From Planctomycetaceae bacterium (GTDB lineage: Bacteria; Planctomycetota; Planctomycetia; Planctomycetales; Planctomycetaceae), in the NCBI GenBank assembly GCA_028284885.1, contig JANQQW010000089.1, positions 1-34,955 on the forward strand: a stretch of DNA of 34,955 nucleotides. Direction: 5' to 3'. The position numbers and the translations under genes are program-made. Positions 2,477-21,554 of this stretch are shown one piece after another; positions within the stretch are counted from its first letter, which is position 1; each line of letters begins with the position of its first letter. Under the pieces are notes generated by a model, which worked only from the letters and a program-made list of their open reading frames with translations, was not told the origin of the DNA and did no database searches.

Positions 2477-4060
2477 ATGTCCGAACGCATCCCCCGCTCG
2501 CCGCACGCGCTGCTGCTGCCAGCCGCCTTCACCATGCTGGCCGCGAACCTCGTCCTCGTAGGCGCGACCCTCTTCACCGAGGACGACTCCCACCGGGTCG
2601 TCACACCGACGTCGAAGGAAGCCCTCCCCGTCGAAGCCACGAAGGCCGTTTCGACGGTCCAACATGACCGGTCGAGTACCGGTGCAGAAGATCCGACCGA
2701 GCCGCCCGACGGCGCGGCCGCGAGAGTCGATCGTGGACTCGTCGCGCGGGCCCGGACGCCGGGCGAAATCGTTGACTCCGTACTCGCACCGCGAGATCAC
2801 GAGTCGGCCGTCCGCCAAGCGGTCCCCAGGCACCGGCCGCAGCGGACGACGGCCGAACTGCTCGCCACCCTGTCGGACGTCACCACGCTCGACCTGTTCG
2901 ACGCGCCGTACGACCGTGACGAGGAGGACGAGAAACGGCGGTACCGTCGCATGCGGAATCGCATCGTGAACGCTCCCACGCGGCCGCCCGAACTGGCTCT
3001 GCCGCACCCGCTGGACGGACCGCTCTGGCGGGACCAACGCCCGGACTTCGCCGGTCTCCCCGTCCTCGAAGGGGACCACTGCCAGCTGTCCGAGGACGAG
3101 AGCGTCGAGCTGCGACGCGTGGCGACGGAGGTCGGTCGAGAGGCCGCGAACGCCGGACGACTCGCCGCGAGCACGCACCGGCATCAGGCCCCGGGAGCGT
3201 GGTTCCGGGTGCAGGGACTCGTCGAGGCGGCCGAGGACGAGTTCGACCCGTCCGGGCTGCACCAGATTCTGCAGATCGCGCCCCCACAGATCCGTCGCAT
3301 GCTCGTTCGCGAGTTGGCCGAGAACGAGTCGGCCGAGTCGACGAGCGCCCTCGTGCAACGGGCGCTGTTCGACTTCGACTCTGGCATCCGGCACGACGCC
3401 GTCGAGGCGCTCGCTACTCGACCGAAGCCGGACTACACGGCCCTGCTGCTTCGGGCGTTCGAGCACCCTTGGGCCCCGGCCGCCGAGCACGCGGCCGACG
3501 CCCTCGTCACGCTCGGCCGGACCGACGTGGTCGACTCGCTCCGCGAACTCGACGGCCGACCCGACCCGCGAGCCCCGTTCAAGGACGCCTGGGACCGCTG
3601 GTTCGCGTACGAGTTGGTTCGCGTGAACCACTTGCGGAACTGCCTGCTCTGCCACGCCCCCAGCCGCGTGCCGTTCGCGCCGCGGGGGACGTCCCCGTTC
3701 CACGGCACGATCAGCACGACCCGCCCGACGCCGCACAACGTCGATCCCGACCCGAAACTGCCGGAGGGGTTCGTCCCCGACCCGTACGCCCCGCTGCCGC
3801 AGGTGTACTACAGCGGCCGCAACGGCAGCGGGCTGTTCGTGCGGGCGGACGTCACCTACGTCTGGCAGGACTTCTCCGTGGTGATGCAGACCGAGAACCG
3901 GCACGCCAGCTGGCCCGAGCGACAACGCTTCGACTTCTTCGTCCGCAAGAAGCACGTCTCCGAGACCGAAGCCCGAGAGCTCGCGACCCGCTACCCGACC
4001 GCCAACTCCCCCCACCGAAGAGCGCTGCAGTACGCGCTGCGAGCGTTGGGCGGGGCGTAG
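2477..4060 (+). CDS. HEAT-repeat protein with one CxxCH haem-binding motif
   Basis: I take the start at the ATG of MSERIPRSPHALLLPAAF, because it begins directly before a hydrophobic segment (LLLPAAFTMLAANLVLVGATL) that can act as an uncleaved signal anchor; an upstream in-frame start at 2432 adds 15 unremarkable residues. The 527-residue product has a charged linker (residues 30-110) and HEAT-like helical pairs in the middle, for example SGIRHDAVEALATRPKPD and AAEHAADALVTLGR. A NCLLCHAP motif at about residues 389-393 could bind one c-type haem. After it comes a Pro-rich segment with PLPQVYYSGRNGSGLFVRAD and a C-terminus rich in Arg. HEAT plus CxxCH proteins are common and uncharacterised in planctomycetes. 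The protein is probably periplasmic and anchored. The role is unknown. Confidence 0.75.
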   Translation: MSERIPRSPHALLLPAAFTMLAANLVLVGATLFTEDDSHRVVTPTSKEALPVEATKAVSTVQHDRSSTGAEDPTEPPDGAAARVDRGLVARARTPGEIVDSVLAPRDHESAVRQAVPRHRPQRTTAELLATLSDVTTLDLFDAPYDRDEEDEKRRYRRMRNRIVNAPTRPPELALPHPLDGPLWRDQRPDFAGLPVLEGDHCQLSEDESVELRRVATEVGREAANAGRLAASTHRHQAPGAWFRVQGLVEAAEDEFDPSGLHQILQIAPPQIRRMLVRELAENESAESTSALVQRALFDFDSGIRHDAVEALATRPKPDYTALLLRAFEHPWAPAAEHAADALVTLGRTDVVDSLRELDGRPDPRAPFKDAWDRWFAYELVRVNHLRNCLLCHAPSRVPFAPRGTSPFHGTISTTRPTPHNVDPDPKLPEGFVPDPYAPLPQVYYSGRNGSGLFVRADVTYVWQDFSVVMQTENRHASWPERQRFDFFVRKKHVSETEARELATRYPTANSPHRRALQYALRALGGA

Positions 4061-4223
4061 GCGAGCCCCCACCAAGCTCGGAGAACTGGCTCGCCGGTCG
4101 ATGCAGGCTGCCGCACTCCGATGTCGTCAGCGAGGTTCGGCGATCGACGTTGGATCGGAACGCGAACGAGAAGTGACTCGTACACGGAGTGATCGAGCAG
4201 GTAGAAGCCTCCGACTCGTCGTC

Positions 4224-5006
4224 CTACTGGCCGCCCTCGTCCCGCTTCGACCACCACGGCAGGCTCACGCCGCCGTCGATGAGCAGCGTGCTGCCCGTCA
4301 TGTACGAGGCGTCCTCGCTGAGGGTGTAGCAGACGGCCCGGCCGATCTCCTCGGGCGTTCCCAGCCGCCCGAGCGGCAGGTTCTTCGCCCCCTCCTCGAG
4401 TTGCTCCTCGGTGAAGAACTTCCGCTCGCCGGGCGTGTCGATCCAGCCGGGGTGGATCGTGTTCACGCGGATGCGGTGCGGTGCGAGTTCGATGGCGGCC
4501 GTGCGGGCCATGTGGTCGATCGCCGCCTTCGCCATGTTGTAGGCCATCGCGGTCGGCACCGGGATGACCGCGTGCGGCGAGCTGACGATCGTGATCGCCC
4601 CGCCCGTCCCCTGGTCCGACATGATCTGGGCCGCCTTCCGCAGCCCGTAGAACGCGCCCCACATCGAGACGTCGATCGTGCGGCGGAAGCCGTCGAGGTC
4701 CGCCTCCAGCAGTCGTTCGCGGTCGCTGAACGCCGCGTTCGAGACGAAGAGGTCGAGCGACCCGAACGCCTCGACCGTCTCCGCGAAGTTCGCCTCGAGG
4801 GCCTCGCGGTCGGAGACGTCCGCCTTCAGCAGGACCGCCTGACCACCGTGCCGCCGCACCTCCTCGGCGACCTCCTCGGCTCCCGCGGTGTCGCTGCGGT
4901 AGTTGATCCCGACGTTCGCCCCGAGCTTCGCCAGTTCGAGGCAGACCCCGCGCCCGATCCCCTTCGAGGCTCCGGTGACGAGGGCGTTCTTCCCCTGCAA
5001 CTTCAT
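4224..5006 (-). CDS. Short-chain dehydrogenase/reductase (SDR), glucose dehydrogenase-like
   Basis: This is a classical SDR of 260 residues and normal length. Visible motifs are the cofactor loop TGASKGIG (about residues 11-18), the SNAA motif near 90, the catalytic Ser pair in TIVSSPHA near 142, and YNMAK with Tyr and Lys near 156 and 160. Near the C-terminus are HPGWIDTPG and the family-typical GSTLLIDGGVSLPWW. It should oxidise an alcohol or sugar hydroxyl with NAD(P); NYRSD after beta-2 hints at NADP(H), since Arg replaces the acidic residue common in NAD enzymes. ATG at 5006 is chosen over GTG at 5012 because the Shine-Dalgarno GAGGAC would touch the GTG but sits 6 bases before the ATG. 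It is the second gene of an operon with the Gfo/Idh/MocA gene. Confidence 0.9.
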   Translation of the reverse strand: MKLQGKNALVTGASKGIGRGVCLELAKLGANVGINYRSDTAGAEEVAEEVRRHGGQAVLLKADVSDREALEANFAETVEAFGSLDLFVSNAAFSDRERLLEADLDGFRRTIDVSMWGAFYGLRKAAQIMSDQGTGGAITIVSSPHAVIPVPTAMAYNMAKAAIDHMARTAAIELAPHRIRVNTIHPGWIDTPGERKFFTEEQLEEGAKNLPLGRLGTPEEIGRAVCYTLSEDASYMTGSTLLIDGGVSLPWWSKRDEGGQ

Positions 5007-5012
5007 CGACAC

Positions 5013-5018
5013 GTCCTC
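5013..5018 (-). promoter_or_regulatory. Ribosome binding site of the SDR gene, overlapping the upstream stop codon
   Basis: GAGGAC on the minus strand lies 6 bases before the ATG at 5006 and shares bases with the TGA stop (5019-5017) of the oxidoreductase gene. Translation of the two genes is therefore probably coupled. Confidence 0.6.
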
Positions 5019-6135
5019 ATCCCAGTGTGAACTCCGGCAGCTTGACCGTCTCGCCGCCCTTCATCGCCGACTCGTGGGCGCAGAGGCCGACGCAGGTCCA
5101 GTTGGCACTCGTCACTGCGTTCGGCCACGGGTCGCGGACCTCCAGCAGGGCGGAGATCATCTCGTGCACGAGGTGCGGGTGGCTGCCGCCGTGCCCGCCT
5201 CCCTGCACGAACGAGAGGTGCTCTGCGTCGTGAATCTCCTGTGGCAGCGTAAACCGCTGGATCGGCTCCGGCAGCAGGTGGGCGTAGTCCGGCACCTCGA
5301 CCCGCTCGGGAATCTCCGGCTCCGGCTTCTTCGCCGTGTGAAGCACGTGCGGCTCGTTCTCGATCAACGTCCACTCGAAGCTCTTCTTCGTGCCGTACAC
5401 GTCGAAGCTCTCGCGGTACTGCCGGGCCACGTCGTACAGGAACCGCCACAGGTGGGCGACGAGGTCGGAGTCCTTGATCTTCACGTGGGCCGACTGCACG
5501 GCGAACGGGTTCCCGGACTTCTTCGCAATGTCGTCCCGTACGCGACCGCTGCCGAAGCACGAGACCGACTCGGCGAGCCCGTCGACGAGCCCCAGGCACG
5601 GGCTGACGACGTGCGTCGCGTAGTGCATCGGGATCATCTCCTCCCAGTAGCTCGGCCAGCCGTCCATGTCCTGCGGGTGGCTCGCGGCGAGGTGCTGCAG
5701 CTTCCCCAGTTCCCCCTGCGCGTACATCTCCTTGATGAACAGGAACTCGCGGCTGTAGACGACCGTCTCGGCCATCATGTACTTCAGCCCCGTCTCGGCG
5801 ACCTTCTCCACGATCCGGCGGCAGTCCTCGATCGTCGTCGCCATCGGCACGGTGCACATCACGTGCTTCCCGGCGTCGAGCGCCGCGAGCGACATCCACG
5901 CGTGGTCGGGAATCGGGCTGTTGACGTGCACGTAGTCGACGTCCGGATCGGCCAGCACGTCCTCGAACTTCGTGTACCGCTTCTCGACCCCGAACTGGTC
6001 GCCGCACTCGTTGACCTTCGACTCGTCCCGCCGGCAGACCGCGTGTACGGTTGCGTTCGGGTGAGCCTGGTAGATCGGGATGAACTCCGCCCCGAATCCG
6101 AGGCCCACCATCGCCACGTTGAGGTTGTCGCTCAC
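5017..6135 (-). CDS. Gfo/Idh/MocA family oxidoreductase
   Basis: The protein is 372 residues from the GTG at 6135, preceded by AAGGA at a good distance; the open frame continues upstream to 6282 but that part does not resemble the family. An N-terminal Rossmann fold is clear (VAMVGLGFGAEFIP, then VHAVCRRDESKV), followed by DPDVDYVHVNSPIPDHAWM. The C-terminal alpha/beta domain has His-rich GGGHGGSHPHLVHEMISALL near residue 320. Family members are NAD(P)-dependent sugar or inositol dehydrogenases, or related lyases. The usual EKP motif, whose Lys takes part in catalysis in many members, reads CTVP here (residues 94-97), so the chemistry may differ. It heads an operon with the SDR gene and diverges from the Tat amidohydrolase gene. 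Confidence 0.9.
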   Translation of the reverse strand: MSDNLNVAMVGLGFGAEFIPIYQAHPNATVHAVCRRDESKVNECGDQFGVEKRYTKFEDVLADPDVDYVHVNSPIPDHAWMSLAALDAGKHVMCTVPMATTIEDCRRIVEKVAETGLKYMMAETVVYSREFLFIKEMYAQGELGKLQHLAASHPQDMDGWPSYWEEMIPMHYATHVVSPCLGLVDGLAESVSCFGSGRVRDDIAKKSGNPFAVQSAHVKIKDSDLVAHLWRFLYDVARQYRESFDVYGTKKSFEWTLIENEPHVLHTAKKPEPEIPERVEVPDYAHLLPEPIQRFTLPQEIHDAEHLSFVQGGGHGGSHPHLVHEMISALLEVRDPWPNAVTSANWTCVGLCAHESAMKGGETVKLPEFTLG

Positions 6136-6287
6136 GCCGTCGTCCTTCGTGGGAGTGCGTTCGAGTGGTGCGACGCCGATGATACGACGTGCGGAGCGAA
6201 ATGGAATCACGCTCGACGATTGAACTCCCGCGGACACCGCATCAGGCTGAACGCGATGACCGCGACCAGCCCTCGAGGCCACTGCCG

Positions 6288-7232
6288 ATGTCCCACTCGC
6301 TCACGCGTCGCCGTTTCGTCCAGTCTCTCGCCGCCGCCGGAACGGTCGGCGTCGCCGCCTCGGCCCTCGCTGAGGAGGAACCGCCGGCCGTGGAGAAGGG
6401 CGTCATCGACTGCCACTCGCACATCTGGACACCCGACACCAAGGCGTACCCGCTCGCTCCGGGCGTCACCAAACGGGACCTCGTGCCGCCCAGCTTCACC
6501 GACGACGAACTGCTCGAGACGGCTCGGCCGTTCCGCGTGACGCGGGTCGTCCTCATCGCCCACTCCAAGTTCTACCTGTGGGACAACCGCTACCTGACCG
6601 ACGCCGCGGCCGAGCGTCCGAACGTCTTCCGCGTCGTCGGCATGGTCGACGACCGGGCCCCGCACCCCGGAAAGGCGATGCGAGACCTGCTGAAGAAGCG
6701 CGTCACCGGCTTCCGCATCACGTCGTGGATCCACGGCAAGGAGAAGTGGCTGAAGGGCCCCGGCATGGCCGAGATGTGGAGAACGGCCTCCGACACCCGG
6801 CAGGCGATGTGCTGCCTCGCGAACCCCGAGGACCTCCCCGTGATCGACGCGATGTGCCGCCGGTTCCCGGAGACTCCCGTCGTCGTCGATCACTTCGGCC
6901 GCGTCGGCGTCGACGGCGAGATTCGCGACGGCGACGTGAGGAACCTCTGCAAGCTCGCCGAGCACCGGAACGTGCACGTCAAGGTCTCGGCCTTTTACGC
7001 CCTCGGCGAGAAGAGGCCGCCGCACGACGACCTCGTCCCACTCGTCCGCCGCGTCCACGAGGCGTTCGGTCCACAACGCCTGATGTGGGGCAGCGACTCG
7101 CCCTACCAGATCAGCGGTCCGAACACCTACGCCTCGTCGCTGGCGTTCGTCCGCGAGAAGCTCGACTTCCTGAAGCCCGACGACCGCGACTGGCTGATGC
7201 GGAAGACGGCGACGAAGGTCTTCTTCGGCTGA
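6288..7232 (+). CDS. Tat-exported amidohydrolase family 2 (lactonase-like) hydrolase
   Basis: The 314-residue product starts with a twin-arginine signal (TRRRFVQSLAAAG, cleavage likely after SALA). The mature part is a TIM-barrel metallohydrolase of the amidohydrolase 2 group: metal motif DCHSHIW (residues 41-47), strand-end VVVDHFGRVG near 205, and MWGSDSPYQ near 268 with the late Asp. This group includes sugar lactonases (fuconolactonase type) and 2-pyrone-4,6-dicarboxylate lactonase, as well as decarboxylases. The start is placed at MSHSL because the Tat motif follows at once; an upstream in-frame start at 6189 would bury it. With the SDR and Gfo/Idh/MocA genes across the divergent region, lactone hydrolysis after sugar oxidation is a reasonable guess. 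It is probably co-transcribed with the NHL gene 67 bases downstream. Confidence 0.85.
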   Translation: MSHSLTRRRFVQSLAAAGTVGVAASALAEEEPPAVEKGVIDCHSHIWTPDTKAYPLAPGVTKRDLVPPSFTDDELLETARPFRVTRVVLIAHSKFYLWDNRYLTDAAAERPNVFRVVGMVDDRAPHPGKAMRDLLKKRVTGFRITSWIHGKEKWLKGPGMAEMWRTASDTRQAMCCLANPEDLPVIDAMCRRFPETPVVVDHFGRVGVDGEIRDGDVRNLCKLAEHRNVHVKVSAFYALGEKRPPHDDLVPLVRRVHEAFGPQRLMWGSDSPYQISGPNTYASSLAFVREKLDFLKPDDRDWLMRKTATKVFFG

Positions 7233-7299
7233 CGAGGAACCCCGACTCGTCTTCGTGATACGATCCCGACACGCACTTCACCCATAGGACTCGACCACC

Positions 7300-10194: not shown

Positions 10195-11451
10195 ATGACT
10201 GACTTTGATCGCTGGTTTCATTCGTCTGCCCGTCCGAACGTTCGCGTACCACTCAAGGAGTTGGTTCTCGAACGCGGGGACGGAGTCCGATGCGAGGGTG
10301 CCGGGACGATCGTGTGTTCTCTGCAGGAATCGACTCTAACAGCTGTCACAAGCTCGAATGCCACGTTTCGATCGGCGTTTCACGGCCTCCTGCGGAAGCC
10401 TGGCAAGCTTCTGCAAGTTGATGACTACTTTAGCTTGGATGGAGTTACACCGTCCGGGATGCAGGTTGAATCAAGGTGGATCAGCGATGAAGACACGACC
10501 TACTTTTCGGACAAGGAGGCAGCAACGTGGAACGCGCGACTCCACGGCATCCAGCTCGGAGACCCAGACCAAGCCGGCCATGCCGACCATCTGCATGCGC
10601 TGGTGTCGGACGTAGCCCGCGTGCAGTGGACCAAGGTGACCAGCTTCACCTCTGACAATCCACACTTCTCAGACTCCCTCTTCAAGCGGGATTGGATGGA
10701 GTTCGAGTTCAACGGACTCACAGTCGTTGCCCGGCAGATCGGAGACGAAGACGCTCTCGTAAGGCTCACCAGCGAGAGCCCACGCCCCGACTTGGCCGAC
10801 CAGCTTCAGGCGCTGACAACCGCCCTCGCCTTTGCGACGGGGCGCCAACCGCAGTGCGTTTTGACCAAGATGAGCGGTTCGAGCGGCAGCCTGTATCGCT
10901 GGAATGCTCTGCGGGACGGCAAACGAAGCTACCACGCATGTCCCACGGACGGGGGCCATGCACCGGACGAGTTTCTTCGAATCCTGAAGTCATCAGCAAC
11001 GTTCTTCGCGACGGAGCTTGGGAAGTCGGTTGCGAACCACCTGTACCAGTCGTGGGACAGCGTGGACAACACCATGTCGCTCCGCACACTGGCCCTCAGC
11101 TCGTCGGTTGAAGGCCTCTTGAAGTTGATGCTTCAGCCGTCTGGGCGATTCAAGGTCGCGACGTGGATGCGGAGAGCTGCAGACGCAGGGTTGTTTGGCC
11201 TGTCAGGCGACGACATCAAGGCTTGGGTCGCTCTGCGTGACGTGGTTGCCCACGGCGGCCTGCTTTGGACAGATGACTGTCTTGAACAGAAGCAGCAAAC
11301 CATCACTCAGTTGGACCGCATGAAGAGTCTGCAGATCAAGATCGTGTTGGAGCTGATCGGAGAACGCGTTCGTGCTTACGATCGTACTGAGCACAGGAGT
11401 GTGGTCTTCGAGCCAGTTGGTGTGGAGCACGTGCGACGTCGCACCTTGTGA
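10195..11451 (+). CDS. Unknown protein with HEPN-like C-terminal domain (ApeA-like architecture?)
   Basis: I do not recognise this 418-residue protein as a whole. Its N-terminal two thirds look beta-rich (GAGTIVCSLQESTLTAV, WMEFEFNGLTVVARQIG). The last 130 residues look all-helical: a helix with LALSSSVEGLLKLML, then ATWMRRAADAGLFGLSGDDIKAW and ALRDVVAHGG, then a long final helix. RDVVAH (Arg348, His353) fits the R-polar-x3-H signature of HEPN ribonuclease domains, and a beta-rich N-terminus plus C-terminal HEPN is the layout of ApeA-type anti-phage proteins. The codons use more A and T at third positions than the genes around it, suggesting acquisition. A short GGAAA precedes the ATG. The HEPN assignment rests on one motif and helix pattern. 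A non-defence role is possible. Confidence 0.5.
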   Translation: MTDFDRWFHSSARPNVRVPLKELVLERGDGVRCEGAGTIVCSLQESTLTAVTSSNATFRSAFHGLLRKPGKLLQVDDYFSLDGVTPSGMQVESRWISDEDTTYFSDKEAATWNARLHGIQLGDPDQAGHADHLHALVSDVARVQWTKVTSFTSDNPHFSDSLFKRDWMEFEFNGLTVVARQIGDEDALVRLTSESPRPDLADQLQALTTALAFATGRQPQCVLTKMSGSSGSLYRWNALRDGKRSYHACPTDGGHAPDEFLRILKSSATFFATELGKSVANHLYQSWDSVDNTMSLRTLALSSSVEGLLKLMLQPSGRFKVATWMRRAADAGLFGLSGDDIKAWVALRDVVAHGGLLWTDDCLEQKQQTITQLDRMKSLQIKIVLELIGERVRAYDRTEHRSVVFEPVGVEHVRRRTL

Positions 11452-11474
11452 AGGGCAGCAGGTCTGGTGAGCGA

Positions 11475-11592
11475 CGGGGTGGCCGGGCGTGGACCGGAGG
11501 GAAGGCCAAGGACGTCGCCACGGAGTTGACGTCGAAACAGCCGAAGACGCGCTCTGGGCCTTCGCGGGAACACTCTCGGCCCGGCCACCCCG
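11475..11592. repeat. Imperfect long inverted repeat between two accessory genes
   Basis: CGGGGTGGCCGGGC (11475-11488) is the exact reverse complement of 11579-11592, and weaker pairing continues inward (GGAAGGCCAAG against CTGGGCCTTCG). The 172-base gap between the HEPN-like and SUKH-like genes is mostly this structure, so it is probably a small repeat element or a transcript end. The right arm ends about 30 bases before the next start codon. Confidence 0.45.
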
Positions 11593-11623
11593 CCGGCTAG
11601 GTGGAGTTCTAGGACGAGTTGAC

Positions 11624-12313
11624 ATGGACCGTGTTCGCCGGTGTCCCTTCCCGATCGATCCTTCAGTCGTTCCGAACGTCGACGGGGCCGGATGGTTGCC
11701 GACGATCGCCGGGCTCTCGGTGGACGAGGTCTTGGCACTCCTCCGTCGCCGGTGGGCGGGTCTTGCCACGCCGTACTCGAAAAGGCCGGCGGAGGAACTG
11801 CTCTCGCGGCCGCTGGTCGGGCTGTCGATCGACGCGGACGGGGATCAGTGGCTCACGTTCGAGGACGAGCCGCAGGCCTCGTTGCACCTGGCTCCACGGC
11901 GGCAGTTGCCCGCACGGATCCGCGAGCAGTTCCCCTTCGAGGCCATCGACGGTCTTGCGGAGTTCGTCGAGAACTTCGGTGGGACGGCCGACTCGCGGCT
12001 ACCGCCGTGCCCGTGGTTCCTGCCAGCCTCGGACGTTCGCGTCGTGTCGGCCGACTGTCCCGACCACGAGTGGGGGAAGGTCGGCGAGTGGGAGGGATCG
12101 CTCACGCTCTACAACACGGCCAGCGGCAACTTCATCGTCGTGCGGCCCGACGGGACGCTCGGCAAGTGGGAACACGACATCGGATGGTACGGCGACGACG
12201 ACCCGTTCGTAACGCTGGGGTGGGACATGGCAACGCTCGTCGACGAGTACGTCGCGTACTTGGCTATGGACGAGGACGAGTGTGAGAGCCTGTCGCCCCC
12301 GTTCCACTACTAG
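11624..12313 (+). CDS. Hypothetical protein, possibly SMI1/KNR4 (SUKH) superfamily
   Basis: From ATG 11624 (MDRVRRCPFPIDPS) the product is 229 residues, without signal peptide or membrane segment, so cytoplasmic. The frame opens earlier, at 11489, but that part lies inside the inverted repeat. The segment LPARIREQFPFEAIDGLAEFVENFGG resembles the LP-x-x-Y-x-x-F-x-x-x-GG region of SUKH proteins. The end, with TASGNFIVVRPDGTLGKW, GWYGDDDPF and a closing helix LVDEYVAYLAMDEDE, also matches their layout. It is acidic and Trp-rich. Many SUKH proteins are immunity proteins against secreted or phage-defence toxins; others are housekeeping. It follows the HEPN-like gene on the same strand, 172 bases away. 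The homology is a by-eye judgement. Confidence 0.55.
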   Translation: MDRVRRCPFPIDPSVVPNVDGAGWLPTIAGLSVDEVLALLRRRWAGLATPYSKRPAEELLSRPLVGLSIDADGDQWLTFEDEPQASLHLAPRRQLPARIREQFPFEAIDGLAEFVENFGGTADSRLPPCPWFLPASDVRVVSADCPDHEWGKVGEWEGSLTLYNTASGNFIVVRPDGTLGKWEHDIGWYGDDDPFVTLGWDMATLVDEYVAYLAMDEDECESLSPPFHY

Positions 12314-21119: not shown

Positions 21120-21150
21120 TTGAACCACAGAGGCGCAGAGGTCGCAGAGA
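21120..21150 (+). repeat. Left inverted repeat of the cassette
   Basis: This 31-base arm starts TTGAACCACAGAGGCGC and ends in CGCAGAGA, its last A being the A of the ORF start codon. It contains AGAGG, which serves as the ribosome binding site. Confidence 0.75.
21137..21141 (+). promoter_or_regulatory. Ribosome binding site AGAGG inside the left repeat
   Basis: AGAGG ends 8 bases before the ATG at 21150. It favours that start over the TTG at 21120, whose codons only read through the repeat. Confidence 0.5.
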
Positions 21151-21554
21151 TGTCCAAGGAGTCAGTCAGCGAGATTCTCAGGTTGATTGTCGACGCCGAT
21201 GTCCTTTCAGCAGCGACTTTCGAGGATGTCGATTGTGATGCAGTCCTTGACGAACGCGACTCCGACATCGCGTTCGAGAGCGAGTGGCTCCGAGTTCACC
21301 GCGAAGTCGAGTCAAAGTGGTCCGAGGACCACGAACTTGCGAACGTCATCAGTGAGATCGCCGAGGCGGCATTTCTCGCGACAACCCGTGCCACGCGGCG
21401 ACACGAAATTGCCAGCTACGTTGCCGACGATTTCGTTCTGATTTCCAAGGCCCGGGTGCTGGGGATTCACGACGAGTTCCTCGATTGCATCTGGGAGGCC
21501 TATGCGTCCGGCAACATGTGTTGCCCAACGACCATCAAGCGACGAAGTCCCTGA
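21150..21554 (+). CDS. Unknown 134-residue acidic protein carried by the cassette
   Basis: I do not recognise this protein. It reads MSKESVSEILRLIVDADVLS at the start, is acidic in the middle (FEDVDCDAVLDERDSDIAFE), then has helices ESEWLRVHREVESKWSEDHE and NVISEIAEAAFLATTRATRR, and ends in a short Cys-containing tail (GNMCCPTTIKRRSP). It has no signal peptide or membrane segment. Codon third positions are clearly less GC-rich than in flanking genes, which supports recent arrival. The start is fixed by the repeat-borne ribosome binding site. It could be a regulatory, immunity or element-maintenance protein, but nothing in the sequence decides this. Confidence 0.6.
   Translation: MSKESVSEILRLIVDADVLSAATFEDVDCDAVLDERDSDIAFESEWLRVHREVESKWSEDHELANVISEIAEAAFLATTRATRRHEIASYVADDFVLISKARVLGIHDEFLDCIWEAYASGNMCCPTTIKRRSP

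Follow-up and report, generated by a model that had tools for sequence, protein, structure and literature searches.

HEPN ribonucleases form a major class of immune effectors, but for most systems our knowledge comes from a few well-studied bacteria. ApeA is counted among the HEPN defence systems (PMC10952713), and the title of a 2026 preprint, as cited in PMC13405049, names deoxydinucleotides as its activators. According to Anantharaman and colleagues (PMC3710099), an active HEPN domain carries an R-x4-6-H motif in which the arginine is followed by one of the polar residues N, D and H, and near this motif helix 2 bears a second acidic residue, typically in the form E-x3-[KR]. The same work describes the N-terminal domain ApeA-NTD1 as about 300 residues long, composed mainly of beta strands, abundant and poorly conserved.

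Here we present an analysis of a single HEPN gene located in a 34,955-nucleotide stretch of planctomycetal DNA (contig JANQQW010000089.1), the whole of which is referred to as the window. An earlier note, based on the letters of the window, had proposed it as a candidate HEPN-type defence gene with a layout recalling ApeA and had called for a profile search, a structure prediction and a comparison of GC content at third codon positions (GC3), all of which were carried out.

Results

The gene is a complete, intact open reading frame of 418 codons at positions 10195-11451 of the + strand, 87 bp downstream of asnS, and its neighbours are asnS, an unnamed ORF of 229 amino acids and asnB. The coordinates, strand, length and placement between asnS and asnB reported in the earlier note were exact. 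When compared with the nearest confident genes within the window, the HEPN gene has a GC3 of 0.69, while flanking genes have 0.90, 0.95, 0.91 (asnS), 0.91 (asnB) and 0.93, and the overall GC is 0.605 across the gene versus about 0.67-0.70 around it. Its composition is foreign, in agreement with what had been noticed for the third codon positions. A search for flanking repeats that would point to an insertion of the gene gave no convincing pair, and none of the adjoining genes is a recognisable defence gene.

Just 3' of the gene, at 11472-11595, lies an intergenic element whose ends are inverted over 17 nt, with 94% complementarity and a distance of 90 nt between them. The region of its left arm recurs at seven further sites of this genome (matches with E < 0.001), near some of which an inverted copy of the right arm is present, and so the element looks like a dispersed palindromic repeat. 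The 229-aa ORF (11624-12313) has a GC3 of about 0.81 and no match in Pfam or PADLOC; it was dropped as a candidate partner gene, since no family matched it and a single homologue turned up elsewhere among the 170 genomes of the same bacterial family. Another ORF of the window, of 144 aa at 21120-21554, has a GC3 of 0.69, as low as that of the HEPN gene.

In the alignment of 17 sequences, E306, R348 and H353 are the sole invariant positions among 212 gap-free columns. Arg348 (11236..11238) and His353 (11251..11253) belong to the R-x4-H motif, which reads RDVVAH in the window protein (residues 348-353) and is present in 17/17 sequences, with the arginine followed by N in 15 relatives, by H in one and by D349 in the window protein. 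The acidic Glu306 (11110..11112) stands in an E-x3-K form, EGLLK (306-310), and roughly half of the sequences have K or R in the +4 column of the alignment. E306, R348-D349 and H353 match the set described in PMC3710099, and E306, R348 and H353 are the predicted HEPN active site. The motif had been pointed out before with exactly these residues, and its invariance together with E306 places it beyond chance. Conservation limited to predicted catalytic residues would be expected of a fast-evolving enzyme.

The full-length AF2 model, obtained with nine alignment rows (pLDDT 75, pTM 0.76), has strands at residues 15-237 and helices at 257-388, as the previously suggested division into a beta-rich N-terminal and a helical C-terminal part had it. 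The beta-rich region, residues 13-240 (10231..10914), is a candidate sensor and probably consists of two beta domains, at about 13-122 and 130-237. Likeness of residues 13-122 to a PilZ-type barrel (Z 6.5 over 85-92 residues) was within the background of the tool, and therefore no claim of nucleotide sensing is made. The helical HEPN domain, residues 257-388 (10963..11358), was also modelled alone with 17 rows (pLDDT 84.9, pTM 0.79); in this model R348 ends one helix, which is followed by a loop and then by the long last helix, a placement like that of HEPN helices 3 and 4 described in PMC3710099.

In the structural alignment of the C-terminal domain model, the 24 highest-ranking entries were nearly all HEPN proteins, with Z from 9.4 to 6.9, on a scale where helical bundles can reach middling values by chance. 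The best match was Dfer_2879 (Z 9.4, 2.7 A over 108 residues), and the others included AF0298 (Z 8.6), HepT toxins (8.3-7.7), the sacsin HEPN domain (7.8) and the HEPN domain of Csm6 (7.7). Foldseek gave nothing below E 0.001 for the full model against PDB and viral structures, and nothing significant for the C-terminal domain model alone. Because of the chance level for helical bundles and of the Foldseek outcome, the argument is built on the consistency of the list and on the conserved residues. Together they upheld the original HEPN call, and in the model the domain adopts a four-helix HEPN fold with the motif ending helix 3.

Searches with the window protein in Pfam, NCBIfam and PADLOC gave no match, a direct search of PDB sequences nothing usable, and direct searches of plasmid, phage, viral and genome collections no close homologue. 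One weak homologue (P0002, E 7.6e-14) was found by a whole-genome search of related genomes and a second (P0003) in a sample of the phylum. The profile of these three sequences detected the protein family in 9/170 genomes of the same bacterial family, and a nine-row profile in 11/392 genomes sampled from the phylum, the window's own genome being included in both counts. Profile searches gave 16 relatives from the same phylum. Others were located on Bradyrhizobium, Salmonella and Pseudomonas plasmids, where those on conjugative plasmids adjoin recombinase and IS genes. With 12-25% identity of the relatives to the window protein (17-row alignment), few genomes and plasmid-borne relatives, the family is diverged, patchy and partly mobile. 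None of its 17 members had a credible match in PADLOC; as far as these searches reach, the family is detectable solely via iterated profiles and is missed by Pfam, NCBIfam and PADLOC.

Some relatives differ in length or architecture. P0006 (L011, 592-2091) ends with a DUF2934 domain (E 2.4e-9), and P0002 (L002, 1498-3249) has a C-terminal extension of about 130 residues. One plasmid relative of 337 aa, ahead of an IS3 element, is apparently truncated (L040, 12001-13014), and another is an apparent C-terminal piece of 179 aa on a plasmid with Tn7-like genes (L041, 5090-5629).

The resemblance to ApeA was examined at the level of both domains. For the Pfam model HEPN_Apea (PF18739) the window protein gave no match, the relative L029 passed the gathering threshold (24.8 vs 24.4 bits) and one relative stayed below it; matches of other relatives to HEPN_Apea, HEPN_RiboL-PSP and HEPN_MAE were weak and sub-threshold. 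In a profile-profile comparison, the family matched a profile of eight ApeA-type proteins (seven plasmid-encoded ones designated 'HEPN domain-containing protein' and one with PF18862 found here) over residues 188-392, with a score of 46.4 and E 4.8e-5, while 20 column-shuffled controls scored at most 22.0 and the reversed profile 12.3. This alignment puts E306, R348 and H353 on the conserved E, R and H of ApeA. A comparison restricted to the HEPN part and four ApeA proteins was weak; it was with whole proteins and more ApeA sequences that the match was obtained. The sub-branch of three members, P0007, P0008 and L028, taken alone gave no match to the ApeA profile.

As to the N-terminal part, ApeA_NTD1 (PF18862) did not match the window protein, and one of the 17 members aligned with nearly the whole domain at E 0.017, below the cut-off. 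Given the sub-branch without an ApeA match, this single hit is treated as a lead; given the poor conservation of ApeA-NTD1 (PMC3710099), a diverged version of it in the family is possible. Judged by profiles, the HEPN part is remotely homologous to that of ApeA, and the protein is described as ApeA-like; since it fails to match the model of the ApeA N-terminal domain, it is not classed as ApeA itself. Both observations made earlier, of a likeness to ApeA and of an N-terminal domain without clear match, have therefore held, the former for the HEPN part. Two ApeA-type genes, at L055 271-1668 and L056 283-1707 on Burkholderia and Paenibacillus plasmids, directly adjoin integrase genes.

Among nine neighbourhoods of relatives, inspected over about 5 kb on each side and counted without a formal random control, defence genes adjoin four relatives (L047, L019, L022 and L050). 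The relative of L047 is preceded at 75 bp by a pair of genes, one for a TIR-type Argonaute partner (PADLOC Aga_TIR, E 3.9e-66) and the other for a short Argonaute (E 7e-172), and is followed by a large serine recombinase gene. Short Argonaute is found in 15/294 genomes of the phylum, so accidental adjacency is unlikely. In L019 a long Argonaute (E 2.3e-298) is located upstream of the relative with one unknown gene between them, in L022 hsdM and hsdS of a type I R-M system are divergent from the relative at a distance of 99 bp, and the relative of L050 has a convergent type IV-like nuclease gene 114 bp away. Several relatives have housekeeping genes around them, like the window copy. The proposal of a defence function is supported by the genes beside four relatives and not by those beside the window copy, and defence stays a proposed role.

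The TIR partner, short Argonaute and HEPN relative of L047 lie in one apparent operon (3015-7256), possibly a three-gene Argonaute system. The gene between the long Argonaute and the relative in L019 (6029-7153) encodes a 374-aa protein with no Pfam or PADLOC match.

Discussion

The HEPN fold, the intact and uniquely conserved predicted active site, the remote ApeA homology, the foreign composition and the defence neighbours of relatives are computed results. This foreign-looking gene with a predicted HEPN domain, some of whose relatives reside beside anti-phage genes, probably encodes a switch, related to ApeA, by which the cell shuts itself down when a virus triggers it. We consider it fairly probable that the product is a solitary two-domain anti-phage effector built on the ApeA plan, in which a HEPN RNase is under the control of a beta-rich N-terminal sensor. 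By analogy with ApeA and other HEPN effectors, the N-terminal region would keep the enzyme silent and sense a signal of infection; the C-terminal domain, presumably as a dimer, would act through Glu306, Arg348 and His353 and cut RNA without metal, tRNA being the most likely target, and growth of the cell would stop before the phage multiplies.

The strongest competitor, which we nevertheless regard as unlikely, is a HEPN RNase that serves maintenance of a plasmid or another element in a toxin-like manner, or RNA decay induced by stress, rather than phage defence. Many toxin-antitoxin pairs have a HEPN toxin (PMC3710099), and the relatives on conjugative plasmids, beside IS and recombinase genes, are near toxin-antitoxin genes. 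However, no MNT-type or RnlB-type antitoxin gene was recognised beside any copy examined, the relatives retain the sensor-like N-terminal region and four of them adjoin defence genes, all of which speaks against this alternative.

A separate question is the state of the window copy itself. Compared with every relative it is 36-65 residues short between helices 2 and 3, and its E306-R348 spacing is 42 residues versus 78-107 in all relatives; it has RD where most relatives have RN, and it lacks the conserved C-terminal GY-x-G-x-Y-x-DY stretch of the family. For these reasons the window protein could be altered or decaying. That it is a remnant which kept the fold and lost its activity with the missing helix 2-3 segment seems to us quite improbable, though, as all 418 codons are open, E306, R348 and H353 are retained, and the shortened domain is still confidently modelled as HEPN, near compact HEPN toxins such as HepT. 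With the frame open, the three active-site residues intact and the short domain modelling as HEPN, the balance tips towards an active window copy, whose behaviour may differ from that of its relatives.

A further alternative, that the protein has a housekeeping or regulatory role, carries R-x4-H by chance and is not HEPN at all, would suit the position between asnS and asnB, but it is refuted in practice by the fold and the conservation, and the invariant E/R/H, the HEPN_Apea and ApeA profile matches, the presence in 9/170 genomes and the foreign composition all make it exceedingly improbable.

Returning to the anti-phage effector, it shares its effector fold with the HEPN defence proteins modelled in PADLOC. 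RnlA (RNase LS) has the HEPN fold as well and aligns with residues 244-385 of the full model (Z 6.0), yet no RnlB gene was recognised adjacent to the window copy, its sole downstream ORF having no Pfam match, and a relation between the N-terminal domains of RnlA and the N-terminal part of the window protein was not seen. HepT, one of the best structural matches, is similarly a compact HEPN protein with R-x4-H, but it is a single domain accompanied by an adjacent MntA, whereas the HEPN domain of the window protein is fused to an N-terminal region and no MNT nucleotidyltransferase gene was recognised among the neighbours of its gene, asnS and the 229-aa ORF, the latter without a Pfam match.

The likeness to ApeA is one of plan. 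Both are encoded by a single gene, for a protein of about 420-500 aa with a beta-rich N-terminal part and a C-terminal HEPN domain; profiles bring the HEPN part and the last portion of the N-terminal part into alignment, with matching positions for E, R and H, and both kinds are found beside integrases or on plasmids. They differ in the motif, which is W-x-x-L-R-N-x-x-A-H-G in most of the family and T-R-N-Y-x-T-H in ApeA. Tentatively, and with less confidence than in the effector role, we suggest a family, hitherto unnamed, of HEPN immune effectors that are each encoded by a single gene and occur in planctomycetes and on plasmids of proteobacteria; its N-terminal sensor would have a fold of its own and respond to an infection signal unlike that of ApeA, and in some genomes the effector gene would lie directly behind Argonaute systems. 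Sharing the plan of ApeA, with an N-terminal sensor apparently diverged beyond recognition, the family would offer a natural group of proteins in which to ask what ApeA-type proteins recognise with their beta-rich sensors.
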